Positions 7,150 through 32,210 of a stretch of 43,001 bases of DNA are shown here, piece after piece (positions within the stretch are counted from its first letter, which is position 1; each line of letters opens with the position of its first letter). The stretch is from assembly GCA_902778995.1 (NCBI GenBank), contig CACYZW010000015.1:1-43001 (forward strand). The letters are read 5' to 3'. Origin of the DNA: an uncultured Eubacteriales bacterium (GTDB lineage: Bacteria > Bacillota > Clostridia > Christensenellales > Aristaeellaceae). The notes under the pieces were generated by a model. The model did not search any database. It was not told the DNA's origin and saw only the letters and a program-made list of their open reading frames with translations. The translations under genes were made by a program, and so were the position numbers.

Positions 7150-8430
7150 TTGAAGAGAAGCTTTGTCATAAAGGGGCATATCTGCCATACGCCCGAGGCG
7201 AACCGCATGGAGATCCGGGAAAACGCCTTCGTCGTGTGCGAGGCGGGCGTCTGCAGGGGCGTTTTTGACGCGGTTCCGGAGCGCTACGGCGCGCTGGAGG
7301 TCATCGATTGCGAAAACCTGCTGGTCATGCCGGGCATGGTGGATCTGCACACCCACGCGCCCCAGTACGCCTTCTGCGGCACGGGCATGGACTACGAGCT
7401 GCTGACATGGCTGATAAGGGTCACCTTCCCGGAGGAGCTTAAATACGCGGACGCCGAATACGCGGCGGCGGCCTATGACCGCTTTGCCCAAATGATGGCC
7501 CGCAGCGCCACGACGCGGGCGGTGATATTCGGCACGCGACACGCCGAAGCCACGCTGATGCTGATGGACCGCATGGAGAAGAGCGGCCTCGTGAGCTATG
7601 TAGGCAAGGTCAACATGGACCGCTGCGACCCGAAGGCGCTGGCCGAGCCGAGCGCCGCAGAAGCGGCGGCGGACACCCGGCGGTTCATCGAGGAGAGCCT
7701 TCGCCGGGAATACAGGCACACGAAGCCCATCGTCACGCCCCGGTTTGTGCCCAGCTGCTCCGACCAGCTGATGGCAGCGCTGGGCGAGCTTCGCAGGACA
7801 TACGGCCTGCCGGTGCAGTCCCATCTGTCGGAAAATCCCGACGAAGTCGAGCTGGTCAGGGAGCTTGCGCCCTGGTCGGCCTTCTACGGCGACGTTTACG
7901 ACCACTACGGTCTGTTTGGCGGCGATTGCAACACCGTCATGGCCCACTGCGTCCATTCCACGCCGCAAGAGGTGCAGCGGCTTCGGGACAACGGCGTGTG
8001 GGTGGCCCACTGCCCCTCCTCCAACATGAACCTCAGCTCCGGCATCGCGCCGATTCGCCGGTATATGGAGCAGGGGCTTCGCGTCGGCCTCGCCACGGAC
8101 GTGGCCGCCGGGACTTCCCCCTCGATGTTCCGGGCGACGACGGACGCCATACAGCTGTCCAAGCTGTACCAGCGCTGTATGGACGGGAACGCAAGGGCGC
8201 TCACCTTCCCGGAGAGCTTCTATCTGGCCACAAAGGGCGGCGGCAGCTTCTTCGGCAGGGTCGGCAGCTTCGAGGAAGGGTACGCCTTCGACGCGGTGGT
8301 GCTGGACGATTCCGCCGGGGCGCCGGGCGAGGCCATGCCGGTACAGGAACGGCTGCAACGGGCCTTCTACTGGGAGCTCGACAGGAACGGCATCGTGATG
8401 AAATTCGCAGACGGGGAAAGGATCTTTTAA
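7150..8430 (+). CDS. guaD: Guanine deaminase (amidohydrolase)
   Basis: Predicted to hydrolyse guanine to xanthine and ammonia, feeding the xanthine dehydrogenases downstream. About 427 aa from TTG 7150, which sits 8 bases after GGGGGAAAGGA; an in-frame ATG at 7123 lacks a good ribosome binding site. The amidohydrolase metal motifs are all visible: PGMVDLHTHAPQY (guanine deaminase type), VQSHLSEN, MAHCVHST, VAHCPSSNMNL and GLATDVAAGTSPSM with the catalytic Asp. It opens the run of purine genes, and its stop is about 95 bp before the next start. A related aminohydrolase activity cannot be ruled out, but HAPQY and context favour guanine. Confidence 0.9.
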   Translation: MKRSFVIKGHICHTPEANRMEIRENAFVVCEAGVCRGVFDAVPERYGALEVIDCENLLVMPGMVDLHTHAPQYAFCGTGMDYELLTWLIRVTFPEELKYADAEYAAAAYDRFAQMMARSATTRAVIFGTRHAEATLMLMDRMEKSGLVSYVGKVNMDRCDPKALAEPSAAEAAADTRRFIEESLRREYRHTKPIVTPRFVPSCSDQLMAALGELRRTYGLPVQSHLSENPDEVELVRELAPWSAFYGDVYDHYGLFGGDCNTVMAHCVHSTPQEVQRLRDNGVWVAHCPSSNMNLSSGIAPIRRYMEQGLRVGLATDVAAGTSPSMFRATTDAIQLSKLYQRCMDGNARALTFPESFYLATKGGGSFFGRVGSFEEGYAFDAVVLDDSAGAPGEAMPVQERLQRAFYWELDRNGIVMKFADGERIF

Positions 8431-8525
8431 CCGCGACGCCCAATTCATAGCGCCCGACCCGACGTACAGCACAGGGTTGGACGGATAAAAGGAAATCGGC
8501 GACAGCAATGAAAGGAGGACAGCCT

Positions 8526-10841
8526 GTGTATGCTGGACAGAAAATAAGGCGCGTGGATGCCTTTGACAAGGTCACCGGGCGCACCAAATATACGGAAGAC
8601 CTGTGCGACAGGGGGGCCTATGTCGCACGGGTGCTGCATTCCACCATCGCCAACGGCCGGGTCATACGCATCGACACGGCCGAAGCGGAAAGGGTGCCCG
8701 GCGTCGTCAGGGTGCTGACCTGCTTCGATCTGAAGGAAAAGCACTACTTTCCCACCGCAGGGCATCCTTGGTCCACCGACCCCGCCCACCAGGACGTGGC
8801 GGACCGGCTGATGCTGACGGAACGCGTGCGCTTCTGGGGGGACGACATCGCCGCCGTTGTGGCGGAGGACGAGATCGCCGCCGCCCGGGCGTTGAAGCTG
8901 ATCCGCGTGGAATACGAGGAATACCCCTTCGTGCTGGACGTACAGCAGGCCATGATGGACGGCGCGCCGCTGCTGCACGAGGCATTCCCGAACAACATTC
9001 TCCGGCATACCCAGACCCGGCTGGGCGACTACGAAAAGGCCATACAGGAGCCGGGCCTTACAAAGGTGGAGGGCTGGTACGAGACGCCGGTGGTGCAGCA
9101 CTGCCACATCGAGAACTTCATATGCTTCGCCGAGGCGGAGGGCGACCGGATCAAAGTCGTCACCTCCACCCAGATCCCCCACATCGTCCGGCGCGTCGTG
9201 GGCCAGGCCCTAGGCATTGACTGGGGCCGAGTCCGCGTAATCAAGCCCTATGTGGGCGGCGGCTTCGGCAACAAGCAGGACGTGCTCTACGAGCCGCTGT
9301 GCGCCTGGCTGAGCATGCAGGTGGGCGGCCATCTGGTCAAACTGGACGTGCCCCGGGAGGAGACCTTCGTCAGCAACCGCACCCGCCACTCGATTCGCAA
9401 CCACATCGTCTCCTGGGTGCGTCCGGACGGCACCTTCGCGGCCAGGAAGCTGGAGGCCTTCTCCGACCAGGGGGCCTACGCCTCCCACGGGCACAGCATC
9501 TGCGCCAAGGGCGCGGGGGCGTTCCCCCAGCTCTACCCCTGCGAAAACGTGGAGGTGGACGCCTACACCGTGTTCACCAACAAGTCGGTGGCCGGGGCCA
9601 TGCGCGGCTACGGCATCCCCCAGGCCATGTGGGCGGTGGAATCCCACACCGAGGACGTGTGCGCCGCCATCGGGGCCGACCCGGTGGAATTCCGCCGCAA
9701 AAACCTGATGCCCGTGGGCTATGTGGACGGCTTCTCGAAGAACGAGCTTTACTGCGATTCCTTCAACCAGTGCCTGGACAGGGCCATGGCCGCCATCGAC
9801 TACGAGCGCAAGTTCAAGGCCTATCAGAACCAGACCGGGGACGTGCGCCGGGGCATCGGCATCGCCATGTTCTGGTACAACACGGCGGTGTGGCCCATCT
9901 CGCTGGAATCCACCTCCTGCCGCATGGTGCTGAACCAGGACGGCTCCTTCCAGGTGCAGGTGGCGGAGACCGAGATCGGCCAGGGCGCGGACACGGCCTT
10001 CGCCCAGATGGCGGCGGACGTGGTGGGCGTTCCGCTGGAAAAGGTGCACGTGGTCTCCTGCCAGGACACGGACGTCGCCCCCTACGGCACCGGCGCCTAC
10101 GCCTCCCGGCAGACCTATGTGGCCGGGTTCTCCATCCGGCAGACGGGCCTGATGCTCAAGCAGCGCATACTGGACTACGCCCACTTGCTGACCCGCATGC
10201 CGGTGTTCAACCTGGACATCGCGGACGGCAACATCGTGCGCACCACCGACGGCAGGGTGCTGATGAGCCTGGCGGAGCTGGCGACGGAGGCCCTCTACAG
10301 CCTGACGGACAGCCGCCACATCACCGCCGAGAGCACCTACCAGGTCAAGTCCAACGCCTACTCCTTCGGCTGCACCATCGCCGAGGTGGAGGTGGACATT
10401 CCCATGTGCAAGGCGCGGCTTCTGAACATCGTGAACTGCCACGACGCGGGCAAGCTGATCAACCCCGCCCTGGCGGAGGCCCAGGTGCACGGCGGCATGA
10501 GCATGGGCATCGGCCTGGGCATGTCGGAAAAGCTGATGTTCGACGAAAGGACAGGCCGCCCGCTGAACAACAACCTGCTGGATTACAAGCTGCCCACCAT
10601 GCTGGATCACCCCCGGCTGGTGGCGGAATTCGTGGAAAACCCGGAGCCCACCAGCGCCTTCGGCACGAAGGCCCTGGGCGAGCCGCCGGCCTGTTCGCCG
10701 GCCCCGGCGATTCGCAACGCCATCCTCCACGCCACGGGCGTGGGGGTGAACACCGCGCCGGTCAATCCCCACAACCTGTTCCGCGCCTTCACCGAGGCCG
10801 GGCTGATTCACGACGAAAGCGAGGTGTCCCGCGATGTATGA
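8526..10841 (+). CDS. xdhA: Xanthine dehydrogenase, molybdopterin-binding subunit
   Basis: Large catalytic subunit of a three-subunit molybdenum hydroxylase that oxidises purines (xanthine, hypoxanthine). About 771 aa from GTG 8526, which follows AAAGGAGG (8511-8518) by 7 bases; ATG 8508 is in frame but lies upstream of that site. The N-terminus (KIRRVDAFDKVTGRTKY) is typical. Visible motifs are GGGFGNKQ near residue 243, AGAMRGYG near 357 (molybdopterin contacts), ETEIGQGADT near 480, and GTKALGEPP near 713 with the catalytic Glu. The FAD and iron-sulfur subunits follow with overlapping frames, so the three are one translation unit. Confidence 0.93.
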   Translation: MYAGQKIRRVDAFDKVTGRTKYTEDLCDRGAYVARVLHSTIANGRVIRIDTAEAERVPGVVRVLTCFDLKEKHYFPTAGHPWSTDPAHQDVADRLMLTERVRFWGDDIAAVVAEDEIAAARALKLIRVEYEEYPFVLDVQQAMMDGAPLLHEAFPNNILRHTQTRLGDYEKAIQEPGLTKVEGWYETPVVQHCHIENFICFAEAEGDRIKVVTSTQIPHIVRRVVGQALGIDWGRVRVIKPYVGGGFGNKQDVLYEPLCAWLSMQVGGHLVKLDVPREETFVSNRTRHSIRNHIVSWVRPDGTFAARKLEAFSDQGAYASHGHSICAKGAGAFPQLYPCENVEVDAYTVFTNKSVAGAMRGYGIPQAMWAVESHTEDVCAAIGADPVEFRRKNLMPVGYVDGFSKNELYCDSFNQCLDRAMAAIDYERKFKAYQNQTGDVRRGIGIAMFWYNTAVWPISLESTSCRMVLNQDGSFQVQVAETEIGQGADTAFAQMAADVVGVPLEKVHVVSCQDTDVAPYGTGAYASRQTYVAGFSIRQTGLMLKQRILDYAHLLTRMPVFNLDIADGNIVRTTDGRVLMSLAELATEALYSLTDSRHITAESTYQVKSNAYSFGCTIAEVEVDIPMCKARLLNIVNCHDAGKLINPALAEAQVHGGMSMGIGLGMSEKLMFDERTGRPLNNNLLDYKLPTMLDHPRLVAEFVENPEPTSAFGTKALGEPPACSPAPAIRNAILHATGVGVNTAPVNPHNLFRAFTEAGLIHDESEVSRDV

Positions 10842-11721
10842 CATCAAGGCGCTGTACGAGGCGGCGAGCGTGGCGGAAGCCATACGGCTGTTGCAGGAGC
10901 ATCCCCGGGCGCAGATCATCGCCGGTGGCAGCGACGTGCTGGTGCAGATTCGGGAGGGCCGGCGCGCAGGCGCCGAGCTGGTGAGCATCTACGGCATCGA
11001 CGCGCTGCGGGGCGTGACCTTCGACGGCGAGGGCGCGATTCGCATCGGCTCGCTGACCTCCTTTTCCCACATCGCGGCCTCCCCCATCATCCGGGAAAAG
11101 ATCGGGGTGCTGGGCGAGGCGGTGAGCCTGGTGGGCGGGCCGCAGATCCGCAACATCGGCACCATCGGCGGCAATACCTGCAACGGCGTGACCAGCGCCG
11201 ACTCCGCCTCCACGCTGCTGGCCTGGGACGCCGTGGTGGAGCTGACGGGCCCGGAGGGGATCCGCAGGCTGCCCATCAGGGACTTCTACATCCGGGCGGG
11301 CGTGGTAGACCTGCGCTCCGCCGAGCTGCAGACCGCCATCATCATCCCGAAGGCGGCTTATGAGGGCTACTTCGGCCACTACATCAAGTACGCCATGCGG
11401 GAGGCCATGGACATCGCCACCCTGGGCTGTTCGGTGAACGTGGCGCTGTCCGATGACCGGAAAACCATCCGCGACGCCCGCATCGCCTACGGCGTGGCCG
11501 GGCCGGTGCCCATGCGCGCCCCCTCCGCGGAGGCCGCCGCGGTGGGCCGCCCGGTGTGCGCCGATACCGTCGCCGCCTTCGCCCGGGCGGTGCTTTCCGA
11601 CATCCATCCCCGGGACAGCTGGCGGGCGGCCAGGGCCTTCCGGGAGCACATCGCGGTGGAGCTGGCCCGGCGGGCCCTGACAAAATCCATAGAGCTGGCG
11701 GGAGGTGCACTTGATGGATAA
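10834..11721 (+). CDS. xdhB: Xanthine dehydrogenase, FAD-binding subunit
   Basis: 295 aa. Carries electrons from the iron-sulfur subunit to NAD+ or another acceptor. The FAD-binding motifs are present: AGGSDVLVQIREG near residue 30 and IGTIGGNTCNG near 108-118, followed by the CO-dehydrogenase flavoprotein C-terminal domain. ATG 10834 overlaps the end of xdhA by 8 bases, and its own stop (11719-11721) overlaps the start of the iron-sulfur subunit. No odd features. Confidence 0.93.
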   Translation: MYDIKALYEAASVAEAIRLLQEHPRAQIIAGGSDVLVQIREGRRAGAELVSIYGIDALRGVTFDGEGAIRIGSLTSFSHIAASPIIREKIGVLGEAVSLVGGPQIRNIGTIGGNTCNGVTSADSASTLLAWDAVVELTGPEGIRRLPIRDFYIRAGVVDLRSAELQTAIIIPKAAYEGYFGHYIKYAMREAMDIATLGCSVNVALSDDRKTIRDARIAYGVAGPVPMRAPSAEAAAVGRPVCADTVAAFARAVLSDIHPRDSWRAARAFREHIAVELARRALTKSIELAGGALDG

Positions 11722-12229
11722 ATCAACGGGTAAGCAGTACAAGCTGATTCACTGCACGGTGAACGGAAAGGAACGGGAGGTCATGGTGGACGTGCGGGCC
11801 TCCCTGACCGACCTGCTGCGCAACGACTTCCGCCTGACCAGCGTGAAAAAGGGCTGCGAGGTGGGCGAGTGCGGGGCCTGCAACGTCATCATCGACGGCG
11901 AGTGCTTCAACTCCTGCATCTATCTGGCAGTGTGGGCCGACGGCAAGGACATACTGACGCTGGAGGGGCTGGAGGGCCCCAACGGCGAAATCTCCGACAT
12001 ACAGCAGGCCTTCATCGACGAGGCGGCGGTGCAGTGCGGCTTCTGCACGCCGGGGGCCATCATGAGCGCGGTGGAGATATTGAACGAGGGCCGGCTGCTG
12101 TCCGACGAGGAGATACGCATTCGCATGTCCGGCCACCTGTGCCGCTGCACGGGGTATGAAAACATCTTCCGCGCCGTGAAGAAGACGATGCTCAAAAGGC
12201 TGGAGGCAGGGAACAGGAAACAGGAATAG
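11714..12229 (+). CDS. xdhC: Xanthine dehydrogenase, [2Fe-2S] subunit
   Basis: About 171 aa from ATG 11714, 8 bases after GGAGG (11701-11705). Two [2Fe-2S] clusters: plant-ferredoxin type (CEVGECGACN, with a further Cys in FNSCIY) and the helical-domain type (CGFCTPG, then LCRCTGY). It passes electrons between the molybdenum centre and FAD. The last codons (encoding GNRKQE and the stop) lie in a heptamer repeat (12209-12229), so a mobile or expanding repeat seems to have set this C-terminus. The symbol follows the E. coli xdhABC naming; some genomes use xdhC for a different maturation factor. Confidence 0.92.
   Translation: MDKSTGKQYKLIHCTVNGKEREVMVDVRASLTDLLRNDFRLTSVKKGCEVGECGACNVIIDGECFNSCIYLAVWADGKDILTLEGLEGPNGEISDIQQAFIDEAAVQCGFCTPGAIMSAVEILNEGRLLSDEEIRIRMSGHLCRCTGYENIFRAVKKTMLKRLEAGNRKQE
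12209..12229. repeat. Heptamer repeat forming the xdhC C-terminus
   Basis: Three 7-bp units (GGGAACA, GGAAACA, GGAATAG) end at the xdhC stop codon. Same family, opposite orientation, as 21026-21116. Confidence 0.65.
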
Positions 12230-12283
12230 TCTTCGCCATCGATTTCTTCCAGGTCCATTTCATCATATTGAAGGAGTGATTCC

Positions 12284-13624
12284 ATGCTTCTTATCGGCAA
12301 CGGTCGCGTCATCACCCGCGACGGGGACAATCCCTATCTCCCCGACGGGGCGGTCGCCATCGACGGCAGCATCATCGTAGAGGTGGGCGAGCGCGGGGCG
12401 CTGCGCAAAAAATACCCGGACGCCGAGTTTATCGACGCCCGGGGCGGCGTGATCATGCCCGGCCTCATCAACGCCCACACCCACATCTATTCCGGGCTGG
12501 CCAGGGGGCTTTCCATCGAGGGCAACAACCCCACCAACTTCCTGGAGGTCCTGGAGGGCACGTGGTGGGCCATCGACCGCAGGCTGACCCTGGACGGCAC
12601 AAGGGCTTCCGCCTACGCCACCATACTGGACTGCATCCGCAACGGCGTGACGACCATCTTCGACCACCACGCCAGCTTCGGCGAGATTCCCGGCTCCCTG
12701 TTCGCCATAAAGGACGTGGCGAAGGAGACGGGCATGCGCGCCTGCCTTTGCTACGAGGTGTCCGAGCGCGACGGCGCGGAAAAGACCGCGCAGGGCATAA
12801 AGGAGAACGCCGATTTCGCCAAATGGGCCAGGGACGCCGACGACCCCATGATCAGGGCCATGTTCGGCGGCCACGCGCTGTTTACGATCTCCGACAGGAC
12901 CTTTGAGAAGATGGTGGAGGCCAACGACGGCATGACCGGCTTCCACATCCACGTGGCGGAGGGCATGAACGACGTATACGACAGCCTGCGCAACTACGGC
13001 TGCCGCCCGGTGAACCGCCTGCTCTACAACGGCATACTGGGCGACAGGACGCTGCTGGGCCACTGCATCCACGTCAGCCCCGCCGAGATGGACATTATCC
13101 GCCAAACCTGCACGATGGTGGTCAACAACCCCGAGTCCAACATGGGCAACGCCGTGGGCTGCGCGCCGGTATTGCAGATGCTGAAAAAGGGCATCACCGT
13201 CGGCATGGGCACCGACGCCTACACCCACGACATGCTGGAGAGCATGAAGGTGTTCCTGATCATCCAGCGGCACAACGCCGCCCTGCCGAACGTGGCCTGG
13301 GGCGAGGACGTGACCATGCAGTTCGTCAACAACCGGGTCATCGCCCAGAAGTACTTCGGCGTGCCCCTGGGCATTTTGAAGGCAGGGGCGGCGGCGGACG
13401 TCATCGTCATGGACTACAAGCCCTTCACGCCCTTCAGCGACGCAAACATCGACGGGCACATGCTGTTCGGCATGAACGGGCGCAACTGCCGCACCACGGT
13501 CATCAACGGCCGCGTGCTGTACAGGGACCGCCAGTTCGTGGACCTGGACGAGGAGCGCATCAACGCCTGGACGCTGGAGCAGAGCAAGCGGCTGTGGGGC
13601 GAGCTGAACCACAGGCAGTATTGA
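12284..13624 (+). CDS. ssnA: SsnA-type aminohydrolase
   Basis: 446 aa, amidohydrolase superfamily. Metal-site motifs: NAHTHIYSG near residue 63, FHIHVAEG near 223, LGHCIHVS near 258 and GTDAYTHDM near 308, all matching the SsnA subfamily. SsnA genes co-occur with ygfK, dpaL, ygeY, ygeW and selenium-dependent hydroxylases, and the set has been shown to be needed for anaerobic urate/purine breakdown in gut bacteria. The exact substrate is not visible from sequence; a deamination or ring-opening step on a purine intermediate is the likely role. Start ATG 12284 follows GAAGGAG. Confidence 0.9.
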   Translation: MLLIGNGRVITRDGDNPYLPDGAVAIDGSIIVEVGERGALRKKYPDAEFIDARGGVIMPGLINAHTHIYSGLARGLSIEGNNPTNFLEVLEGTWWAIDRRLTLDGTRASAYATILDCIRNGVTTIFDHHASFGEIPGSLFAIKDVAKETGMRACLCYEVSERDGAEKTAQGIKENADFAKWARDADDPMIRAMFGGHALFTISDRTFEKMVEANDGMTGFHIHVAEGMNDVYDSLRNYGCRPVNRLLYNGILGDRTLLGHCIHVSPAEMDIIRQTCTMVVNNPESNMGNAVGCAPVLQMLKKGITVGMGTDAYTHDMLESMKVFLIIQRHNAALPNVAWGEDVTMQFVNNRVIAQKYFGVPLGILKAGAAADVIVMDYKPFTPFSDANIDGHMLFGMNGRNCRTTVINGRVLYRDRQFVDLDEERINAWTLEQSKRLWGELNHRQY

Positions 13625-13649
13625 TAGCTTGCATCGAAAGGAGGATCCC

Positions 13650-16646: not shown

Positions 16647-16660
16647 TACGGGAGGCATAC

Positions 16661-17881
16661 ATGGAAAACATCAAATGGGTACTCAATAAAATGCCGAAGA
16701 GCGCGGACGAGCACCTGTCGATCATGTCCCCGGACAACGTCGACAAGGCCAGGGCGTTTTTTGCAGGCTTTCCCCAGTATGCCGTGACGCCGCTGGCAAA
16801 GCTGGACGGCATGGCCGCGCGGCTGGGGCTGGGCGACCTGTTCGTGAAGGACGAGAGCTACCGCTTCGGGCTGAACGCCTTCAAGGTGCTGGGCGGGGCC
16901 TTCGCCATCGCCCGCTATATCGCAAGCGAGACGGGCAGGGACATCGGGGAAATCACCTATGATTACCTGACAAGCGACCAGCTGTACGAGGACTTCGGTC
17001 AGGCCACCTTCTACACCGCCACCGACGGCAACCACGGCCGGGGCGTGGCCTGGGCGGCGCAGCAGCTGGGCCAGAAGGCCGTGGTCCACATGCCCAAGGG
17101 CAGCGCGAAGATGCGCTTTGACAACATCGCCAAAGAGGGCGCAGAGGTCACCATCGAGGAGATGAACTACGACGACTGCGTGCGCCTCGCCGCCGCCGAG
17201 GCCGCCCGGACCGAGCACGGCGTGGTGATGCAGGACACCGCCTGGGAGGGCTACGAGCTGATCCCCTCCTGGATCATGCAGGGCTACGGCTGCATGGCTC
17301 AGGAGGCCATACAGCAGCTTCGCGCCCTGGAGATCAACCGGCCCACCCACGTGTTCGTGCAGGCAGGCGTCGGCTGCATGGCCTCGGCGGTGGTGGGCTA
17401 TTACGCCAACCTGTTCCCCTCCCATCCGCCCAAATTCATCGTCATGGAGGCGGAAGCGGCGGCCTGCCTGTACAAGGGGGCCTGCCAGGGGGACGGCAGC
17501 CCCGCCATCGTGGGCGGCGACCTTTCCACCATCATGGCCGGCCTGGCCTGCGGCGAGCCCAACACGCTGAGCTGGGACATACTGCGCAACCACGCCGACG
17601 CCTTCCTGGCGATTCCGGACTGGGTCAGCGCCCGGGGCATGCGGATGCTGGCCGCGCCGATGAGGGGCGACCCCGCCGTCGTGAGCGGCGAATCCGGGGC
17701 CGTGGGCATGGGCGTCGTGGACGCGCTGATGACCGACCCGACCTGCGGGGCTTTGAAGGAAGCCCTCGGGCTCGACAAAAACAGCAGCGTGCTGCTGTTC
17801 TCCACCGAGGGCGACACCGACCCCGAAAATTACCGAAGGATCGTATGGGGCGGCGCGTACCCGACGGTTGAAGCACAGTGA
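16661..17881 (+). CDS. dpaL: Diaminopropionate ammonia-lyase
   Basis: 406 aa, PLP-dependent fold type II enzyme (YgeX). It splits 2,3-diaminopropionate to pyruvate and two ammonia, which fits a pathway ending in pyruvate or lactate. The PLP lysine is in FGLNAFKVLGGAFAIAR near residue 72; the phosphate loop region follows in VQAGVGCMASAV, and TDGNHGRGVAW is typical. ATG 16661 is preceded by GGGAGG. It follows ygfK by 14 bases, so it is in the same operon. Another diamino-acid substrate is possible. Confidence 0.93.
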   Translation: MENIKWVLNKMPKSADEHLSIMSPDNVDKARAFFAGFPQYAVTPLAKLDGMAARLGLGDLFVKDESYRFGLNAFKVLGGAFAIARYIASETGRDIGEITYDYLTSDQLYEDFGQATFYTATDGNHGRGVAWAAQQLGQKAVVHMPKGSAKMRFDNIAKEGAEVTIEEMNYDDCVRLAAAEAARTEHGVVMQDTAWEGYELIPSWIMQGYGCMAQEAIQQLRALEINRPTHVFVQAGVGCMASAVVGYYANLFPSHPPKFIVMEAEAAACLYKGACQGDGSPAIVGGDLSTIMAGLACGEPNTLSWDILRNHADAFLAIPDWVSARGMRMLAAPMRGDPAVVSGESGAVGMGVVDALMTDPTCGALKEALGLDKNSSVLLFSTEGDTDPENYRRIVWGGAYPTVEAQ

Positions 17882-19514: not shown

Positions 19515-19531
19515 TCAAGGAGGGCATTGAC

Positions 19532-20883: not shown

Positions 20884-20910
20884 TTCCTTCTTGATGGGTT
20901 AAGTGCGAAA

Positions 20911-21116: not shown

Positions 21117-21148
21117 TCCTGAACGATCACACAAAGAAGGTGTCTCTC

Positions 21149-22090: not shown

Positions 22091-22153
22091 GGAAACACCG
22101 CACAATGCTCATGGTGCATTACTGCACGACTCGATTATGCGGTATTTCCTTAA
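22087..22153. repeat. Inverted-repeat element, short copy (67 bp)
   Basis: Ends TTAAGGAAACACCGCA (22087-22102) and TGCGGTATTTCCTTAA (22138-22153) pair with one mismatch and would fold into a strong hairpin. It supplies the yqeA stop codon and touches the ribosome binding site of the next gene (22155-22160). Confidence 0.9.
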
Positions 22154-22170
22154 AAAGGAGAGTCGATTAA

Positions 22171-24750: not shown

Positions 24751-24848
24751 GGCTTGAGGATTGCAGTGCGCAAAAAGCATTCCGCGTGGATTTCCACGTT
24801 CCCCTTCGATTTGTATTGCTCAATGAATGACAGGAGGTTCCAATCGCC

Positions 24849-26234
24849 ATGAAAGCGCTGATTCGCGGTGGTACGATCGTAACGGACGAGGCGTCGTTCG
24901 CAGGGGATGTCCTGATCCGGGACGGGGTCATACTTAAAGTTGCGGAGCGCATCGACGCCCCGGACGCGGCGGTCGTCGACGCGGCGGGGAAGCTGGTTCT
25001 GCCAGGGGCGGTGGACATACACACCCACATGGACCTGGACGTGGGCATCGCCCGGGTGATCGACGATTTCTTCACCGGCACCGTGGCGGCGGCCTGCGGC
25101 GGCACGACCACCATCGTGGATCATATGGCCTTCGGCCCCGTCGGATGCAGCCCCTGGCATCAGGTGAAGGCGTACCACCGGCTGGCGGACGGCGTCGCCG
25201 CGGTGGATTACGGCTTTCACGGGGTCCTGCAGCACGTCGATGATTCGGTGCTGGACGACATGGCGCAGATCGCCGCCCAGGAGGGCATCACCAGCTTCAA
25301 GGCCTACATGACCTACGACGGCCGACTGGACGACCTGGCGCTGATGCGGGTGCTGGAGCGGGCCGCGCAGGAGGGCATACTGATCGCCGTCCACTGCGAA
25401 AACCACGGCATCGTGACCTGCCTGCGGGAGCGCTTCGTCCGGGAGGGCAAGACCCAGGCGCGATGGCACCCCGTCAGCAGGCCCGCCGTGGCCGAAGCCG
25501 AGGCGGTCAACCGGCTGCTCTGCCTGGCCAGGGCGGCGGGCGACGCGCCGGTGTACGTGGTGCACCTGTCCACCCGGATGGGTCTGGAGGCGATTCGCAG
25601 GGCCCGGGCGAACGGCCAGAGGCACTTCGGGGCCGAGACCTGTCCGCAATACCTCCTGTTGGACGAGGCGCTGTACGGCGATCCCCGGGAGGGTCTCAAG
25701 GCCATCATGGCCCCGCCGCTGCGCAGGCAGGCGGACCGGGACGCGCTGTGGGACGCCCTTTCGGGGGACGAGCTGGACACCGTCGCCACAGACCACTGCC
25801 CCTTCACCTTCGCCCGCCAGAAGCAGCAGGGGGCGGCGGATTTCACCCGATGCCCCAGCGGCGCACCCGGCGTGGAGGAACGGCTGGCGCTGCTCTATTC
25901 CGAGGGCGTGGCAAAGGGCAGGCTCACCCTGCCCCAGCTGGTGAAATACGCCTGTGCGAACCCCGCGCGGGTGGCGGGGCTGTACCCGCGCAAGGGCGCG
26001 ATTGTGGAAGGGGCGGACGCCGACCTGGTCATCTTCGACCCGCAGCGGAAATGGACGCTGACGACGGCAGCGCTGCACGGCAACGCGGACTACACCTGCT
26101 ACGAGGGCATGAAGGTCGTGGGCCGCGTGGAGCGGGTGCTGCTCCGGGGCAAGACCATCGTCCGGAATGGCGCATTTGTCGGCGCGCGGGGCGACGGCCA
26201 ATACCTGCGCCGGGAAAAGAGCAGCCTGGCATGA
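24849..26234 (+). CDS. hyuA: Dihydropyrimidinase/hydantoinase-like hydrolase
   Basis: 461 aa, cyclic amidohydrolase. Motifs: DIHTHMDLD near residue 56, SFKAYMTYDG with the carboxylated metal-bridging Lys near 151, CENHG near 181, VVHLSTRMG near 237 and ATDHCPF with the catalytic Asp near 315. It opens a cyclic amide ring; in the purine cluster this is probably a hydantoin-like or pyrimidine-ring intermediate. AGGAGG lies 11 bases before ATG 24849. It is followed by mocA with an ATGA overlap. Confidence 0.92.
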   Translation: MKALIRGGTIVTDEASFAGDVLIRDGVILKVAERIDAPDAAVVDAAGKLVLPGAVDIHTHMDLDVGIARVIDDFFTGTVAAACGGTTTIVDHMAFGPVGCSPWHQVKAYHRLADGVAAVDYGFHGVLQHVDDSVLDDMAQIAAQEGITSFKAYMTYDGRLDDLALMRVLERAAQEGILIAVHCENHGIVTCLRERFVREGKTQARWHPVSRPAVAEAEAVNRLLCLARAAGDAPVYVVHLSTRMGLEAIRRARANGQRHFGAETCPQYLLLDEALYGDPREGLKAIMAPPLRRQADRDALWDALSGDELDTVATDHCPFTFARQKQQGAADFTRCPSGAPGVEERLALLYSEGVAKGRLTLPQLVKYACANPARVAGLYPRKGAIVEGADADLVIFDPQRKWTLTTAALHGNADYTCYEGMKVVGRVERVLLRGKTIVRNGAFVGARGDGQYLRREKSSLA

Positions 26235-26842
26235 GCGCGCCTGAAGCCATCAAGGACATCGGCTGCATCGTGATGGCCTCCGGGCTGTCGGCGCGATACG
26301 GCAGGGACAAGCTGCTGGAAATGCTCGGCAACAGAGAAATCATACTGCACACCGTCGGCAGCCTGTCGGCGGCGGGCTTTATGCCGCTGGTGGTGACCCG
26401 AAGTGAGGCCGTCGCGGCGCTGATGAAGCGGGAGGCCGTCGCCTGCGCCCTTCACGACGGGCCGCTCAAGAGCGACACCATGCGCGCGGGCCTGGAAGCC
26501 CTGCCCCCGGACGCGGCGGGCTGGCTGTTCATGCCCGCCGACCAGCCCCTCGCACAGCCTGCCTCGCTGCGAAGGCTGGCGGCGCGGTTCCTGAATTGCC
26601 CGGCACGGGCCGTCCGGCTGGGCTTCGGGGCGGACGCGGGCAGCCCCGTGCTGTTCCCCGCCGCCTGCCGCAGCGCCCTGCTGGCCTACCGGGGCGACCG
26701 GGGCGGCATGGACGTGCTGAAAGAGCGGCGCATCCCCTGCGACGTCGTGTCGGCGGAATACGCCTGGGAGCTTTGGGACGTGGACACGCCTGAGGGGATG
26801 GACCGGTTGCGGGAGGTCTATAGCCAATTCGTTCGTAGCTGA
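26231..26842 (+). CDS. mocA: Molybdenum cofactor cytidylyltransferase-like (MocA/YgfJ)
   Basis: 203 aa from ATG 26231, overlapping the hyuA stop. Nucleotidyltransferase fold with the N-terminal motif VMASGLSARYGRDKLL and the metal motif PADQPL. It should attach CMP to molybdopterin for the hydroxylases in this locus. The family version close to selenium hydroxylases is called YgfJ and may act on the selenium-bearing form. No odd features. Confidence 0.88.
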   Translation: MSAPEAIKDIGCIVMASGLSARYGRDKLLEMLGNREIILHTVGSLSAAGFMPLVVTRSEAVAALMKREAVACALHDGPLKSDTMRAGLEALPPDAAGWLFMPADQPLAQPASLRRLAARFLNCPARAVRLGFGADAGSPVLFPAACRSALLAYRGDRGGMDVLKERRIPCDVVSAEYAWELWDVDTPEGMDRLREVYSQFVRS

Positions 26843-26846
26843 GCCC

Positions 26847-26875
26847 TTGACAACCCCAAATGACCATAGTACAAT
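26847..26875 (+). promoter_or_regulatory. Near-consensus promoter of the ModE-like gene and selenium genes
   Basis: TTGACA (26847-26852), 17 bp, TACAAT (26870-26875). A 7-bp dyad (ACCATAG 26863-26869, CTATGGT 26878-26884) wraps around the -10. This would let the downstream regulator or another protein block transcription. Confidence 0.8.
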
Positions 26876-26893
26876 AGCTATGGTTATTTTTTT
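26863..26893 (+). terminator. Dyad plus T-run after mocA: terminator and/or operator
   Basis: The same dyad is followed by TTATTTTTTT (26884-26893), the form of a weak intrinsic terminator for the upstream operon. It also overlaps the promoter -10. The two roles are not exclusive. Confidence 0.55.
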
Positions 26894-26937
26894 GGATGAA
26901 TAACGACTGCCCGCCGTTTTTTGATAAGGAGCGTCCC

Positions 26938-27336
26938 ATGAGCACAAATCAAAACCCAATTTCGCCCGTCACAGCGCGGGTCCGGCTGACGCTGCACACC
27001 GGCGAGCGGTTTTTCGGCCCCGGCGTGTGCGAGCTGTTGGAACGCATCCGGGAGACGGGCTCCATACAGGCGGCGGCGGCGGAGATGGAGATGTCCTACA
27101 CCAAGGCCTGGCGGATACTGAACCGGGCCGAGCGGGAGATGGGCGTGCAGCTGATCACCCGGGTCAGCGGCGGCAAAAAGGGCGGCAGCTCGACCCTGAC
27201 GGAGGCGGGCGAAAGGGCGGTGCGCGACTTCAGGGCGATGGAGGCGAAGCTCTGCGAGGCCGCCGACGCCCTGTTGGCGGCGCACGGCGCTTCCTTCGCG
27301 CCCAAGGGCGTTCAGCGCACGGAACGGGACGATTGA
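26938..27336 (+). CDS. ModE-like transcriptional regulator, DNA-binding domain only
   Basis: 132 aa from ATG 26938 after AAGGAG; an in-frame ATG 14 codons upstream has no such site. Winged helix-turn-helix of the LysR-like ModE N-terminal type: TGSIQAAAAEMEMSYTKAWR is the recognition region. The molybdate-binding MOP domains of full ModE are absent. It probably controls the locus in response to something other than molybdate, or is a partner-dependent regulator. It has its own promoter with a dyad over the -10, which would suit autoregulation. Confidence 0.82.
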   Translation: MSTNQNPISPVTARVRLTLHTGERFFGPGVCELLERIRETGSIQAAAAEMEMSYTKAWRILNRAEREMGVQLITRVSGGKKGGSSTLTEAGERAVRDFRAMEAKLCEAADALLAAHGASFAPKGVQRTERDD

Positions 27337-27352
27337 AGCGAGGCGCAGGACT

Positions 27353-28795
27353 ATGGACGAACGATACGGCGTGGGCATCGACATCGGCTCCACCTGTGCA
27401 AAGACCGTGGTCGTCGACGGGGACGGGCGCATCCTCTGGCGCGATCTGCGGCCCACCGGCTGGAGCAGCGTGGACACCGCCGGGGCCATACGGCGCGACT
27501 TGACGGAGGCGGTGAAGGACGGCGCGCTCGTGCGGTTCGTCGCCACCGGCTACGGCCGCGTATCGGTGCCCTTCGCCCACAGGTGCGTGACGGAGATCAG
27601 CTGCCACGCCAGGGGCGCGGCGGGACAAATACTGTTGATGAAGGAGTACCCCATGATCTATCTGGACAACGCCGCGACCACGATGACGAAGCCCGCCTGC
27701 GTCGTCCGCGCGGTGACGGAGGCGCTCACCTCCCTGGGCAACACCTCCCGCGGGGCCCACGAGGGGGCGCTGAACACCAACCGGCTGCTGTACAGGACCC
27801 GGAAAAAGCTGGCGGACTTCTTCGGCTGCCCGAGGTCGGAGCAGGTTGTCTTCACGAACAATTCCACCGAAGCGCTGAACATCGCCATCTGCGGCACGAT
27901 CCATCGGGGCGACCACGTGATTACCACAGTGCTGGAACACAACTCGGTGCTGCGCCCGCTGTACCGGCTGGAAAAAGAGCGCGGCGTACAGCTCTCCTTC
28001 GTACAGGCGGACCGGCTGGGGAGGATCAATTACTCCGATTTTGAGCGCCTGATCCAGCCGAACACCCGGGCCATCGTCTGCACCCACGCCTCCAACCTGA
28101 CGGGAAATATGCTGGACATCGACCGCATCGGCAAAATCGCGGCGGCCCACGGCCTGCTGTTCATACTGGACGCCTCCCAGACGGCGGGCGCGACGCCCGT
28201 CCACATGGCGAAGTCCGGCATTTCCCTGCTGTGCTTCACCGGGCACAAGTCCATGATGGGGCCCCAGGGCACCGGCGGGCTGTGCATCAACGGGGATGTC
28301 GAAGTGGACCCCTTCAAGGTGGGCGGCACCGGCGTGCAGTCCTATCTGACAGAGCAGCCCCGGGAATACCCCACCCGGCTGGAGGCGGGCACACTGAACG
28401 GTCACGGCATCGCGGGACTGTCGGCGGCGGTGGATTTCATTGCCGCCACCGGCATGGACGCGATTCACGCCCATGAGATCGCCCTGTGCCGCCGGTTCTA
28501 CGAGGCCGTCGTCAGTATTCCGAAGGTGCGCGTCTACGGCGATTTTTCCAGCTGGAACCGCTGCCCCGTCGTGGCGCTGAACATCGGCGAAACCGATTCT
28601 GCGGTGGTCTGCGACGCGCTGGCCTGCGACTACGGCATCGCCACCCGCGCGGGGGCCCACTGCGCCCCGCTGATGCACAGGGCGCTGGGCACGGAAGCCC
28701 AGGGTGCGGTGCGGTTCAGCTTCGGATACTTCAACACCGCCGAAGAGGTGGACGCGGCGATTGAGGCCGTGAGAGACATCGCGGGAAGAAATTGA
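27353..28795 (+). CDS. Cysteine desulfurase (class V aminotransferase) with an N-terminal activase fragment
   Basis: 480 aa open from ATG 27353. Residues 1 to about 93 match the start of an acyl-CoA dehydratase activase (ASKHA ATPase): GIDIGSTCAKT, FVATGYGR, EISCHARGA, but the rest of that roughly 260-aa domain is missing. From residue 101 (ATG 27653, after AAGGAG and 6 bases) a full-length desulfurase of about 380 aa follows: YLDNAATT, PLP Lys in GHKSMMGP (residue 299), catalytic Cys in AGAHCAP (residue 437). It likely delivers sulfur or selenium for the hydroxylase cofactor. Translation may start at 27653, leaving the first part a remnant; no stop separates the two. Confidence 0.85.
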   Translation: MDERYGVGIDIGSTCAKTVVVDGDGRILWRDLRPTGWSSVDTAGAIRRDLTEAVKDGALVRFVATGYGRVSVPFAHRCVTEISCHARGAAGQILLMKEYPMIYLDNAATTMTKPACVVRAVTEALTSLGNTSRGAHEGALNTNRLLYRTRKKLADFFGCPRSEQVVFTNNSTEALNIAICGTIHRGDHVITTVLEHNSVLRPLYRLEKERGVQLSFVQADRLGRINYSDFERLIQPNTRAIVCTHASNLTGNMLDIDRIGKIAAAHGLLFILDASQTAGATPVHMAKSGISLLCFTGHKSMMGPQGTGGLCINGDVEVDPFKVGGTGVQSYLTEQPREYPTRLEAGTLNGHGIAGLSAAVDFIAATGMDAIHAHEIALCRRFYEAVVSIPKVRVYGDFSSWNRCPVVALNIGETDSAVVCDALACDYGIATRAGAHCAPLMHRALGTEAQGAVRFSFGYFNTAEEVDAAIEAVRDIAGRN

Positions 28796-28839
28796 AATTT
28801 GACAGTTGTATATAAATGAAAAACCGGGAGGTACAAGTT

Positions 28840-29457
28840 ATGGAACGCACAATCGACTGCATGGGCATGGCCTGTCCGCTGCCCGTGATCAACGCGAAGA
28901 AGGCCATCGAGGCCTTCACCGAGGACGGGACGCTGCACATCAGGGTGGACAACGAGACGGCGGTGCAAAACCTGATTCGCCTGGGCGAGCACAACGGCTT
29001 TGTGGTCGCATCGGCGCAAAACGGAGACAATGCCTACACGGTCACCATGGCCGTGGTCGCCGGTCAGGCCAAAGGGGCGCAGGTCCCGGCGGAGGCCCTC
29101 AGCTGCGCCGCGCCCGCGAAGGGCGGCAAGGTGGTGGTGCTGTCGGCGGACACCATGGGCAGCGGCGACGAAAAGCTGGGCAAAAAGCTGATGAAGGCCT
29201 TCATATTCGCCCTGACCAACCAGGACGAGGCGCCGGACAAGGTGATCTGCTACAACACGGGGGCCTTCCTGACCACCCGGGACGCGGACACCGTCAAAGA
29301 TCTGAAGACCCTCGAGGCGGCGGGAACCACCGTCATGACCTGCGGCACCTGCCTGGATTTCTACGGCCTGAAGGCGGAATTGCAGGTGGGCATCGTCTCC
29401 AACATGTACGACATCGTGGAGGCCCAGATGAGCGCCGCGCAGATCATCCGGCCTTAG
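28840..29457 (+). CDS. yedF: Selenium metabolism protein YedF (TusA-like plus DsrE-like)
   Basis: 205 aa from ATG 28840, 8 bases after GGGAGG. The N-terminal TusA domain has CMGMACPLPV with the carrier Cys12. The C-terminal DsrE-like domain has CGTCLDFYG (Cys168 and Cys171), which is also suited to carry a chalcogen. Family members co-occur with SelD and selenium-dependent hydroxylases. It probably passes persulfide or perselenide between the desulfurase and the acceptor protein. No odd features. Confidence 0.9.
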   Translation: MERTIDCMGMACPLPVINAKKAIEAFTEDGTLHIRVDNETAVQNLIRLGEHNGFVVASAQNGDNAYTVTMAVVAGQAKGAQVPAEALSCAAPAKGGKVVVLSADTMGSGDEKLGKKLMKAFIFALTNQDEAPDKVICYNTGAFLTTRDADTVKDLKTLEAAGTTVMTCGTCLDFYGLKAELQVGIVSNMYDIVEAQMSAAQIIRP

Positions 29458-29461
29458 CCCC

Positions 29462-29698
29462 ATGAGGATCCGGGAAAGGCGGCTGATCGTCGCGTTTTAC
29501 ACGACCCACGACGCCATGGCTTTCGAGGATTTCTGCCTCGACCGTGGGATCGGTGGGCGGCTGATTCCCCTGCCCCGGGAGATCAGCGCCGGCTGCGGGC
29601 TCGCATGGAGCGCCCCGCCCGGCGACCCGGCGGGGCTTCGGGCGCTGCTCGCCGAGGCGGGCGTCGCGCCGCAGCACATGAAGGAGATGGATATCTGA
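29462..29698 (+). CDS. DUF3343 small putative Se/S carrier
   Basis: 78 aa. A short cysteine-bearing protein (Cys25; Cys45 in SAGCGLAW) of the family now described as putative Se/S carrier-like. It starts four bases after the yedF stop, with no clear ribosome binding site, so it is probably translated by coupling. SelD follows at once. Function is predicted from conserved neighbourhood only. Confidence 0.82.
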   Translation: MRIRERRLIVAFYTTHDAMAFEDFCLDRGIGGRLIPLPREISAGCGLAWSAPPGDPAGLRALLAEAGVAPQHMKEMDI

Positions 29699-29699
29699 C

Positions 29700-30734
29700 A
29701 TGGAGACGAACGCAAGGCTCACGCGCCTGGCCGCCTGCGCCGGGTGCGGCGCGAAGGTGGGCGCCGGTACGCTGGCCGCCCTGCTGGGCGATTTCAGGAC
29801 GCGGACGGACCCCAACCTGATCGTCGGCTTCGACAAGAGCGACGACGCCAGCGTCTATGTCATCAACGACGACACGGCGCTGATCCAGACCGTGGATTTC
29901 TTCCCGCCCATCGTGGACGACCCCTATCTGTTCGGCCAGATTGCCGCCGCCAACGCCCTCTCGGACGTCTACGCCATGGGCGGCGAGCCGCGCCTGGCCC
30001 TGAACGTGATGTGCGTGACGGAGAACATGGAGGAGGCCTGGATCCGGGATATCCTGCGCGGCGGCTACGACAAGGCCTACGAGGCCGGGGCGATCATCTC
30101 CGGCGGGCACACCATCCGGGGCAGTGAGCCCCTCTACGGCCTGTCGGTCACGGGCTTTGCAAGGCCTTCGCAGATACGGCGCAACGACGCCGCCAGGCCG
30201 GGGGATGTGCTGATCCTGACGAAGCCCCTGGGCGTGGGCATACTGACCACGGCGGCCAAGGCGGACATGACAAAGCCGGCGCTGATGGAAAAAATATACC
30301 GGCAGATGACGACCCTGAACCGGGACACCTGCCGGGCGATGCAGCGCTGCCGCGTGCACGGCTGCACCGACGTGACGGGCTTCGGCCTGATGGGCCACGG
30401 CTGCGAGATGGCCCAGGGCAGCGGCTGCACGCTGCACATACAGGTGGACAAGGTGCCCTTCCATACGGAGGCCCTGGAGCTTGCGGACATGGGGCTGGTG
30501 CCCGCCGGGGCCTACCGCAACCGGGACTTCGCCGAAAAATCGGTGGAAATCCGGGGCGACGTTTCCCGGGCCATGCAGGACATACTCTACGACCCCCAGA
30601 CCAGCGGCGGGCTGCTGATCGCCGTGGACGAAGGGGACGGTGAGGCGCTGCGGGAGGAAATCCCCGGGGCCGCCATCATCGGCCATGTGACCGAAAGGGA
30701 AGACAAGGCGCTGGTGCTGGAGGCAAAGCCATGA
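29700..30734 (+). CDS. selD: Selenide, water dikinase (Cys form)
   Basis: 344 aa; makes selenophosphate from selenide and ATP. The catalytic site is AGCGAK (Cys16 and Lys19), so this is the cysteine, not selenocysteine, form; the second Cys of E. coli is Ala here. Other motifs: TVDFFPPIVDDPYLFGQ, ANALSDVYAMGG and DPQTSGGLL. No selA or selB appears in the window. Selenophosphate could thus serve the molybdenum cofactor rather than selenocysteine (the orphan-SelD idea). ATG 29700 lies a base after the DUF3343 stop. Confidence 0.93.
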   Translation: METNARLTRLAACAGCGAKVGAGTLAALLGDFRTRTDPNLIVGFDKSDDASVYVINDDTALIQTVDFFPPIVDDPYLFGQIAAANALSDVYAMGGEPRLALNVMCVTENMEEAWIRDILRGGYDKAYEAGAIISGGHTIRGSEPLYGLSVTGFARPSQIRRNDAARPGDVLILTKPLGVGILTTAAKADMTKPALMEKIYRQMTTLNRDTCRAMQRCRVHGCTDVTGFGLMGHGCEMAQGSGCTLHIQVDKVPFHTEALELADMGLVPAGAYRNRDFAEKSVEIRGDVSRAMQDILYDPQTSGGLLIAVDEGDGEALREEIPGAAIIGHVTEREDKALVLEAKP

Positions 30735-31621
30735 TGGATCATGCGGACCTCGTCGTCGTCCGCGGGGCGGGCGATATCAGCACCGGCACGATTCACCGGC
30801 TATTTTGCGCCGGGTTTGACGTGCTGGTGCTGGAGGCGGCGCGTCCCTCCGCCATACGAAGGCAGGTCGCCTTTTCAGAAGCGGTTTACGACGGCGCGGC
30901 GACGGTGGAGGGCGTCACGGCGGTGCGGATCGCCGACCTGTCGGAGGCGGGCGCGGCCCTGAACCGGGGCGCGGTGCCGCTGCTGGTGGACCCGGCGGGC
31001 GAAAGCATCCGGCGGGTCCAGCCGCTTGCCGTGGTGGACGCCATACTGGCGAAGCGAAACCTCGGCACCTCGATGGACATGGCGGCGCTGACCGTCGCCC
31101 TGGGGCCGGGCTTCGAGGCCGGGCGGGACGTGCACTATGTGATCGAGACCATGCGGGGGCACGACCTGGGGCGCATCATCGCCTCGGGCAGCGCCGCCGC
31201 AAACACGGGCATTCCCGGCATCATCGGCGGCTACGGCATCGAGCGGGTCGTTCGCGCCCCCGCCCCGGGGGTGTTCCGCATGCGCAGGGACATCGGCGAC
31301 ATCGTGGCAGCGGGCGAGATCATCGGCGTGGTCGTCGCCCCGGAGGGGGAAACGCCGGTGCGCGCGCAGATATCCGGGCTGCTGCGGGGCATCCTGCGGG
31401 ACGGCTACCCCGTCACGGCGAGCTTCAAGCTGGCCGACGTGGACCCCCGGACGGGGGAGCTGAAGAACTGCGCCACCATCTCCGACAAGGCCCGCTGCAT
31501 CGCCGGAAGCGTGCTGGAGCTGGTCAGCGCGGCCCGATGGCGCAGGGAAAGGCATCCCGCTCAATCAGGTCGCACAGCCGCCTGGCGCGTTCCGGTTCCT
31601 TCAACACATCCGTCTGATTGA
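30731..31621 (+). CDS. yqeB: YqeB-type selenium-dependent hydroxylase maturation protein
   Basis: About 296 aa, overlapping selD by ATGA. It has the VRGAGDISTGTIHRL nucleotide-binding-like start and the SGSAAANTGIPG segment; the final part (ISGLLRGILRDGY, then DVDPRTGEL) is typical of the family. It is linked to selenium insertion in molybdenum hydroxylases by co-occurrence. The usual C-terminus ends near ARCIAGSVLELV (about 31525); beyond that the frame continues about 30 codons through the antisense of yqeC. The true end may have been lost by deletion or fusion. Confidence 0.87.
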   Translation: MMDHADLVVVRGAGDISTGTIHRLFCAGFDVLVLEAARPSAIRRQVAFSEAVYDGAATVEGVTAVRIADLSEAGAALNRGAVPLLVDPAGESIRRVQPLAVVDAILAKRNLGTSMDMAALTVALGPGFEAGRDVHYVIETMRGHDLGRIIASGSAAANTGIPGIIGGYGIERVVRAPAPGVFRMRRDIGDIVAAGEIIGVVVAPEGETPVRAQISGLLRGILRDGYPVTASFKLADVDPRTGELKNCATISDKARCIAGSVLELVSAARWRRERHPAQSGRTAAWRVPVPSTHPSD

Positions 31622-32210
31622 CGAGATAGCAGTCCGCCAGGGCCTCCCGGTTCAAAACCTCCGCGATATGTTCCTCGCGCACCGGCGCATCGGGCGCGAT
31701 GCCCGCCAGGGCGCAGAACAGCTCGGGGCGGTGGGCAGCTGCGCCGGCCGGACGGTCGATCCCGGAGGCTCCCACCAGGCAGACGGTCATCGATGTGCAG
31801 GCCGGAATGACCGGCTCCCAGGGCATATGGGCCTTCAGGGGGCGTCCCGCCGCCCCGTCCGCCTCCACGACCACATAGTCCGCCTCCGAAAGCAGGGCCT
31901 CGAAGGGAATCACATTTGACGGGTCGGCCAGCTTGCCGGAGGGCAGCAGCTTCCCCAGGCAGATCACCCGGCTGCGGGCCAGGGCGGCGCGAAGCGCTTC
32001 CACGACCCGCCGCCGGTTCCCGGGCGACGCGTCCGCACCCGCGTCCACGAGGGGCATGTCCGAAAAGGGGAACATGTGGGTCGAGGTCGTCAGTACGACG
32101 GTTCCGGGCAGGCGCTCGGACAGATGGCGCAGGGTCGTGGTCTTTCCCCCGCTGCCGATCACCGAAATAAACCTTCCGTTGACATGGAACGCTTCAAAGG
32201 GCCTGTACAT
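31524..32210 (-). CDS. yqeC: YqeC-type selenium-dependent hydroxylase accessory protein
   Basis: 228 aa. A P-loop nucleotide-binding protein with SVIGSGGKTTTLRHL near the N-terminus and a VVVEADGAAGRPLK segment near residue 115; both are typical of YqeC. It is thought to help install the selenium ligand or load cofactor. It runs against yqeB and the last 98 bp overlap. It has its own promoter (TTGACC-N18-TATAAT). Confidence 0.9.
   Translation of the reverse strand: MYRPFEAFHVNGRFISVIGSGGKTTTLRHLSERLPGTVVLTTSTHMFPFSDMPLVDAGADASPGNRRRVVEALRAALARSRVICLGKLLPSGKLADPSNVIPFEALLSEADYVVVEADGAAGRPLKAHMPWEPVIPACTSMTVCLVGASGIDRPAGAAAHRPELFCALAGIAPDAPVREEHIAEVLNREALADCYLVNQTDVLKEPERARRLCDLIERDAFPCAIGPR

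Follow-up and report, generated by a model that had tools for sequence, protein, structure and literature searches.

The window, the 43,001-nucleotide stretch of contig CACYZW010000015.1 (assembly GCA_902778995.1) analyzed here, comes from an uncultured Eubacteriales bacterium of the family Aristaeellaceae and carries one locus in which genes for purine breakdown adjoin genes for selenium use. We consider it likely that this locus joins the breakdown of purines by urate reduction to a selenium trait which depends on the selenophosphate synthetase SelD and serves only a cofactor of molybdenum hydroxylases. The locus is of a known kind, whose link between selenium and purines has been in print since 2008 (PMC2276186). 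What is chiefly new here is a putative deletion scar in front of the cysteine desulfurase gene, at the place where some close relatives keep what would be an ATP-driven iron-sulfur reductase (an activase and a double-cubane protein, here called the pair). The interest lies in this pair and in the all-or-none pattern of the trait within one genus; the locus is otherwise ordinary for its kind. The window lies on contig C15 of a draft genome of 3.88 Mb (239 contigs, 83.1% complete).

Composition of the locus

Nineteen genes run in the same direction, from guaD (7123) to yqeB (31621), and the convergent yqeC extends the locus to 32210 (Table 1). An earlier reading made from the letters alone (the sequence-only reading) had begun the locus at 7150, a start that has to be moved to 7123. 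The genes are tightly packed, with only two of the 18 junctions longer than 100 bp: the one ahead of ygeY measures 253 bp, the one ahead of yqeA 411 bp. Genes were named by family scans against the curated cut-offs of NCBIfam, and with Pfam. On the purine side XdhA, XdhB, XdhC, SsnA, YgfK, DpaL, YgeY, YgeW and carbamate kinase passed the NCBIfam cut-offs, as did Se_dep_XDH, dihydropyrimidinase (HyuA), the cysteine desulfurase family, YedF, SelD, YqeB and YqeC in the rest of the locus. Three names come from the best match only and lie below the curated cut-off: GuaD (331 vs 375 bits), MocA (87 vs 186) and the ModE-like gene (66 vs 98), which in Pfam matches only a LysR-type helix-turn-helix. 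The desulfurase passed TIGR01977 (430 vs 377 bits) and missed the selenocysteine lyase family SclA, NF040779 (359 vs 525). Every gene named in the sequence-only reading was thus found on the strand given there, and its statement that two known gene sets, one for urate and purine degradation and one around an orphan SelD, are joined here is supported.

The window holds together a putative XdhD-type enzyme, YgfK, SsnA, HyuA, YgeW, YgeY and YgeX (DpaL), whose urate chemistry is known from other species. The route from urate through yanthine and diaminopropionate to pyruvate was assayed with enzymes of Escherichia coli, in which YgfK dearomatizes yanthine (PMC12507026), and the roles given here are transferred by family from that pathway. 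Guanine would be deaminated by GuaD, XdhABC would act between hypoxanthine or xanthine and urate, and the one-chain selenium-type xanthine dehydrogenase (XDH) would reduce urate to yanthine. YgfK and SsnA would then reduce and open the ring of yanthine, after which HyuA, YgeW, YgeY and DpaL would strip the remainder to pyruvate and ammonia, and carbamoyl phosphate from YgeW could yield ATP via YqeA. The one-chain XDH has two 2Fe-2S domains and the molybdenum domains, no FAD domain was found in it, and its best solved relatives are the aldehyde oxidoreductases 1sij and 1dgj. In this it resembles the XdhD of Clostridioides difficile, which, unlike the enzyme of E. coli, has no FAD subunit (PMC12507026).

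In the selenium half, the desulfurase would free selenium, YedF and DUF3343 would carry it and SelD would make selenophosphate. The molybdenum cofactor would receive its cytidine form from MocA, and YqeB, with the help of YqeC, would place selenium on molybdenum. We only infer which XDH receives the selenium and what the exact roles of YqeB, YqeC, YedF and DUF3343 are.

Selenium use in the genome and the genus

The genus was sampled with 28 genomes, the window's own genome (G000) included. SelD passed the cut-off in eight of them (G000, G080, G081, G086, G090, G099, G100 and G101), and YqeB in exactly the same eight. SelA was found neither in the own genome (83% complete) nor in any other of these eight; a SelA match in G093, which has no SelD, was left out of the counts (27.6 bits, cut-off 22.8, covering 83 of 367 positions). 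SelB was searched for in G000, G016 and G060, and the best match of the own genome reached 141.7 bits, under the cut-off of 242. This cut-off is passed by six of the 80 genomes of the family sample, while lower matches, taken as other translation factors, are seen in all 80. The search for tRNA-Sec, which covered G000, gave a best score of 42.8 against the gathering score of 47 bits. The genome-wide search for selA, selB and tRNA-Sec proposed in the sequence-only reading therefore yielded nothing over cut-off in the own genome. Selenouridine synthase over cut-off was found in none of the 28 genomes, its three short weak matches being in genomes without SelD (G085, G093 and G103).

As far as these tests on draft genomes reach, SelD in this genus looks to serve the cofactor trait alone. 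XdhABC and the one-chain XDH are both present in the same eight SelD genomes; a match to PF20256 in G016, a fragment at a contig edge which is 29% identical to xdhA in a genome without SelD, was taken as another hydroxylase. In this respect the genus makes a clean natural case. Eight of the 28 genomes combine SelD and YqeB with both hydroxylases, the other 20 have neither SelD nor YqeB over cut-off, and no further use of selenium was detected in the genus. C. difficile, by comparison, also makes selenocysteine.

Client of the selenium genes

Mutants of C. difficile in selD and yqeB draw no profit from urate and little from xanthine (PMC11448449), therefore a hydroxylase step of the window locus should be under the control of selenium. 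In the own genome, XdhABC and the one-chain XDH of the locus were the only molybdenum hydroxylases found. Family name and gene position favour the latter as the putative client: its curated family, and not that of XdhA, is named selenium-dependent XDH, and its gene adjoins hyuA and mocA on the selenium side, both being matters of label and position and not of chemistry. It is possible, if rather doubtful, that the selenium cofactor goes instead to XdhABC or to both enzymes. Such an assignment would agree with the presence of both hydroxylases in all SelD genomes of the genus, and with good growth of C. difficile on xanthine and urate alike needing selD (PMC11448449). Because both enzymes co-occur with the selenium genes in eight of eight genomes, the genomes themselves do not tell which of them is the client. 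The sequence-only reading had the selenium genes serve the one-chain XDH, and an exclusive service of that kind is not borne out by these counts, nor by five loci from other genera (L009, L012, L013, L014 and L016), in whose stretches examined the selenium genes occur but nothing matches the one-chain XDH. L013, examined over 21 kb, has hyuA, selD, yqeB, yqeC and part of guaD.

Several further points weigh against the coupling of urate reduction to selenium proposed above. No sequence feature shows the presence of Mo=Se, and XdhABC accompanies the selenium genes as strictly as the one-chain XDH does. The latter is only 27% identical to E. coli XdhD, therefore we infer its urate reductase role. 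In L009, which showed no one-chain XDH between hyuA and mocA, that place is taken by a flavoprotein with FAD_binding_2 and FMN_bind domains (4439-6223). The five loci of other genera have lowered our confidence, since they have selenium genes without a one-chain XDH in reach; those genomes may encode this enzyme at another place, or selenium may have a different client in them. Deletion of yqeC alone had no clear effect on the growth of C. difficile (PMC11448449). Zhang and others, who described the third selenium trait in 2008, regarded the evidence for molybdenum hydroxylases as then not strong, and a 30 kDa protein with labile selenium was seen in Enterococcus faecalis (PMC2432076). A PF00860-type permease, which the E. 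coli locus has although it does not strictly define such clusters, was not found in the own genome, 83% complete, and with this the sequence-only reading goes too far in describing the locus as a near-complete unit with a cofactor factory of its own. Among the window's open reading frames (ORFs) scanned there is likewise no gene of basic molybdenum-cofactor synthesis, YqeB is without the XdhC half of E. coli YqeB, and genes for the activase, the double-cubane protein and a second DUF3343 appear to have been lost.

The predicted structure of YqeB is of low confidence (mean predicted local distance difference test, pLDDT, 47.5). Its usable part, residues about 170-240, matches biotinyl/lipoyl domains in the model. 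The biotin-bearing motif of such domains is MKM, which is absent from the window YqeB sequence. A likeness of 29.3% to AccB (PMC11448449) agrees with this model. YqeB is about the size of the 30 kDa labile-selenium protein of E. faecalis, and it could be a carrier. The model of YqeC is good (pLDDT 92.5), and no Foldseek match to it reached E 0.001, the best being signal recognition particle-type GTPases at 1.6e-3; a profile search gave matches at chance level only. Its GGKT, EADG and NQxD motifs are invariant in an alignment of ten sequences, NQxD being kept partly in E. coli YqeC, and we read YqeC as a P-loop nucleoside triphosphatase (NTPase). Tail to tail, yqeB and yqeC overlap by 98 bp (31524-31621), whereas the two genes are free of overlap in L008 and L009.

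A putative deletion scar before the desulfurase

The desulfurase ORF (27353-28795) is one open frame of 480 codons, of which residues 7-90 significantly match an activase. The desulfurase gene of the sequence-only reading is present, and its proper start appears to be 27653, since 27353-27622 would be the broken start of another gene, a feature that the sequence-only reading had overlooked. This activase ends in the window at codon 90; the full-length one in L005 has about 255 residues. Past the overlap at 27620-27623 there follow RDKYC and a stop in another frame, which would be the final five codons of a DUF3343-type gene otherwise lost. In L005 the full activase is followed by a double-cubane family protein of 424 residues (NF040772, 479 vs 350 bits; a match to the solved structure 6eno over 421 residues) and, further on, by the desulfurase. 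In eight of the ten stretches read, the double-cubane gene and the desulfurase are separated by a small DUF3343-type gene, which was not seen before the desulfurase in L005 and L018; one of the eight, that of L006, was tested against Pfam and matched. Compared with L006 and L019, about 2.0 to 2.2 kb of DNA is missing from the window.

The state of the pair differs among the SelD genomes of the genus. It is intact in four of the seven others (G080, G081, G090 and G099), whose double-cubane proteins are 92-100% identical to the L005 protein (G081's own), it is missing next to the desulfurase of G086, G100 and G101, and it is scarred in the window. Double-cubane paralogues of 31-33% identity occur in G000, G086 and G095. 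For a wider count, the 18 loci of the desulfurase search (L004-L020 and L022) were reduced by L010, which has no upstream DNA, to 17 assessable ones, of which five are from genus members (L004, L005, L006, L008 and L019, taken as contigs of G101, G081, G080, G100 and G099 and counted once). The double-cubane gene is present in ten of the 17 (L005, L006, L007, L009, L011, L014, L016, L018, L019 and L022) and was not found in seven (L004, L008, L012, L013, L015, with 1.2 kb upstream only, L017 and L020). L021 and L023-L027 stand outside the count, and L028-L072 outside the search for the double-cubane gene. In L024 and L025 double-cubane-type and activase genes lie about 4-9 kb from the desulfurase.

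We favour the reading of 27620-27623 as the scar of a deletion, and not as the joint of a new domain fusion. A working fusion of a piece of an ATPase of the acetate and sugar kinase/Hsc70/actin (ASKHA) type with the desulfurase would account for the continuous frame of 480 codons and for its activase match. However, it would retain just 90 codons of a gene that in L005 has about 255. Between the two stretches relatives hold the activase, the double-cubane protein and, in most cases, a DUF3343 gene, the end of such a gene survives out of frame beside the overlap of 4 nt, and the desulfurase has its own ribosome site and ATG. On the strength of the relatives' gene order, the junction and this ATG, the fusion was rejected as very improbable. 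An error of assembly, with the activase, double-cubane and DUF3343 genes intact in the organism, is also improbable, though to a lesser degree. It is conceivable in a draft of 239 contigs that is 83% complete, but the sole double-cubane-type match of this genome at E<=1e-30 is a 31% identical paralogue on C184, and a short shared sequence at the join, as here, is often seen in real deletions.

As for the function of the pair, we propose tentatively that the activase, the double-cubane protein and the second DUF3343 protein might form an ATP-driven low-potential reductase which gives reduced selenium to SelD. In the four genomes with the pair neither SelA nor selenouridine synthase was found over cut-off, therefore the pair would there serve the Mo-Se cofactor and not selenocysteine. 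The double-cubane gene has been provisionally linked to selenium metabolism, and several genomes with double-cubane clusters have selD and selenium-cofactor enzymes and no selABC (PMC10418091); for Slackia, activase and dehydratase-type genes are listed with YedF, DUF3343 and others (PMC5322559, Table 1). A placing of the pair in the orphan-SelD hydroxylase locus was not found in the literature searched, outside which most subscription papers lie. If the proposal is true, the window species is a natural deletion of the selenium-reductase step, in which the desulfurase route would be left to supply selenium. The intact, absent and scarred states within one genus offer a direct way to test the selenium role of the double-cubane enzyme.

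Two other associations of the pair were considered. Its absence follows no rule with the form of YgfK, which is split in G100 and G101, both without the pair, but full-length in G086, also without it, and in the scarred window. A part in urate reduction is not favoured either: L007, L016 and L018 have the pair and L014 has the double-cubane gene, there at the contig edge, and no urate genes were found in the stretches examined. That check is weak, as L014 has only about 1.5 kb of upstream DNA and L018 about 2 kb ahead of the pair, and selected ORFs were scanned. In L014 (6405-9068) and L016 (14805-15896) an XdhC-type maturation gene lies downstream of yqeC, and L014 also has a molybdate transporter permease.

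Comparison with known systems

Haft and Self (2008) described an orphan selD of E. faecalis surrounded by nearly the same gene set, and proposed selenium-dependent hydroxylases, purine breakdown and even a link to gout (PMC2276186). That locus, EF_2563 to EF_2582, shares with the window yqeB, yqeC, a YedF-type gene, selD, selenocysteine lyase and a YgfJ/MocA-type gene, and further a one-gene XDH, yqeA, ygeW, ygeY, dpaL, a hyuA-type gene, ygfK and ssnA (PMC2276186). In comparison with the table of that paper, guaD, separate xdhABC, the ModE-like gene, DUF3343 and the activase piece are in the window only, whereas the table has a permease (as a one-way best hit), of which none was found in the window.

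In E. coli K-12 MG1655 the region b2866-b2883, from xdhABC to guaD, holds matches of 13 window genes to their namesakes (BLAST E<=1e-5) and, by annotation and family only, mocA as a fourteenth. The purine set is there in one region with yqeB, yqeC and mocA, while selD is elsewhere (b1764). That region has YgfM and XdhD, the YgeV regulator and permeases, and no TIGR03311-type gene is annotated in it. Its YqeB carries an XdhC half; that of the window consists of the YqeB part only. In C. difficile, whose mutants link selD and yqeB to growth on xanthine and urate, the genes yqeB, yqeC and selD lie apart from each other (PMC11448449). The double-cubane protein with its activase (6eno) is matched by the L005 gene of the relatives, whereas the window keeps only the start of the activase.

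Arrangement of the locus in related genomes

In G000, G086, G099, G100 and G101 a single contig holds guaD, yqeC and most of the genes in between, and the purine and selenium halves adjoin in all of these except G086. There some 10 kb separate the two halves, hyuA accompanies the selenium genes, and the 37 kb examined of a 38 kb contig did not show dpaL. In G080, G081 and G090 the genes seen are split over two contigs whose ends fall inside the locus, and in the stretches examined of G090 ssnA to yqeA were not seen. yqeA is in two pieces in G099 and was not seen in G101.

Single genes and their surroundings vary as well. The YgfK ORF of G100 (L127, 11204-13970) has 559 residues and 651 vs 835 bits and matches just both ends of YgfK; the ORF next to it, of 354 residues, matched no Pfam family, and the same split match is seen in G101 (L130). 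The desulfurase match of G090 (L137, 8457-9492) falls into two parts, suggesting that the frame is broken in this genome. In G101 (L004, 6758-9966) an AAA ATPase and a McrBC-type restriction gene occupy the interval from mocA to the desulfurase, in the place of the ModE-like and activase genes of the others, and in G100 (L008, 7233-9455) a MatE-type transporter ORF lies between mocA and the ModE-like gene.

Features of the window

Table 1. Genes and other features of the purine and selenium locus, with positions in the window.
Feature	Position	Strand	Remark
guaD, guanine deaminase-like	7123-8430	+	below curated cut-off; 31% to E. coli GuaD
xdhA, xanthine dehydrogenase Mo subunit	8508-10841	+	1193 vs 780 bits
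xdhB, FAD subunit	10834-11721	+	family scan
xdhC, Fe-S subunit, not XdhC_CoxI chaperone	11705-12229	+	family scan
ssnA, aminohydrolase	12284-13624	+	family scan
ygfK, flavin/Fe-S reductase	13629-16646	+	1300 vs 835 bits
dpaL/ygeX, diaminopropionate ammonia-lyase	16661-17881	+	family scan
ygeY, M20 hydrolase	18135-19514	+	family scan
ygeW, knotted carbamoyltransferase	19532-20728	+	794 vs 500 bits (for 19529-20728); GTG start
yqeA, carbamate kinase	21140-22090	+	family scan
one-chain Se-type xanthine dehydrogenase	22171-24750	+	TIGR03311, 1238 vs 830 bits
hyuA, hydantoinase/dihydropyrimidinase	24849-26234	+	family scan
mocA-like nucleotidyltransferase	26231-26842	+	below curated cut-off
ModE-like winged-helix gene	26896-27336	+	below curated cut-off
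putative remnant of acyl-CoA dehydratase activase-type ATPase, first 90 codons	27353-27622	+	frame open into desulfurase
putative deletion junction	27620-27623	.	4 nt common to matches on both sides
cysteine desulfurase family gene	27653-28795	+	own ribosome site (AAGGAG) and ATG
yedF	28816-29457	+	family scan
DUF3343, Se/S carrier-like	29462-29698	+	Pfam PF11823
selD, selenophosphate synthetase	29700-30734	+	394 vs 125 bits
yqeB	30731-31621	+	family scan
yqeC, P-loop NTPase-like, convergent with yqeB	31524-32210	-	family scan

The other ORFs of the window that were scanned, namely an FtsK end, an FGGY kinase, argS, a BspA-type protein, genes of the phosphotransferase system (PTS), a PEP-utilising enzyme and a fibronectin-type protein, do not look related to the locus. 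The BspA-type protein, encoded at 34467-36896, is large and has leucine-rich repeats and bacterial Ig-like domains, and a PTS sugar transporter at 37337-39234 lies in two overlapping frames (EIIB-EIIC, then EIIC-EIIA), an arrangement like that of a frameshift.

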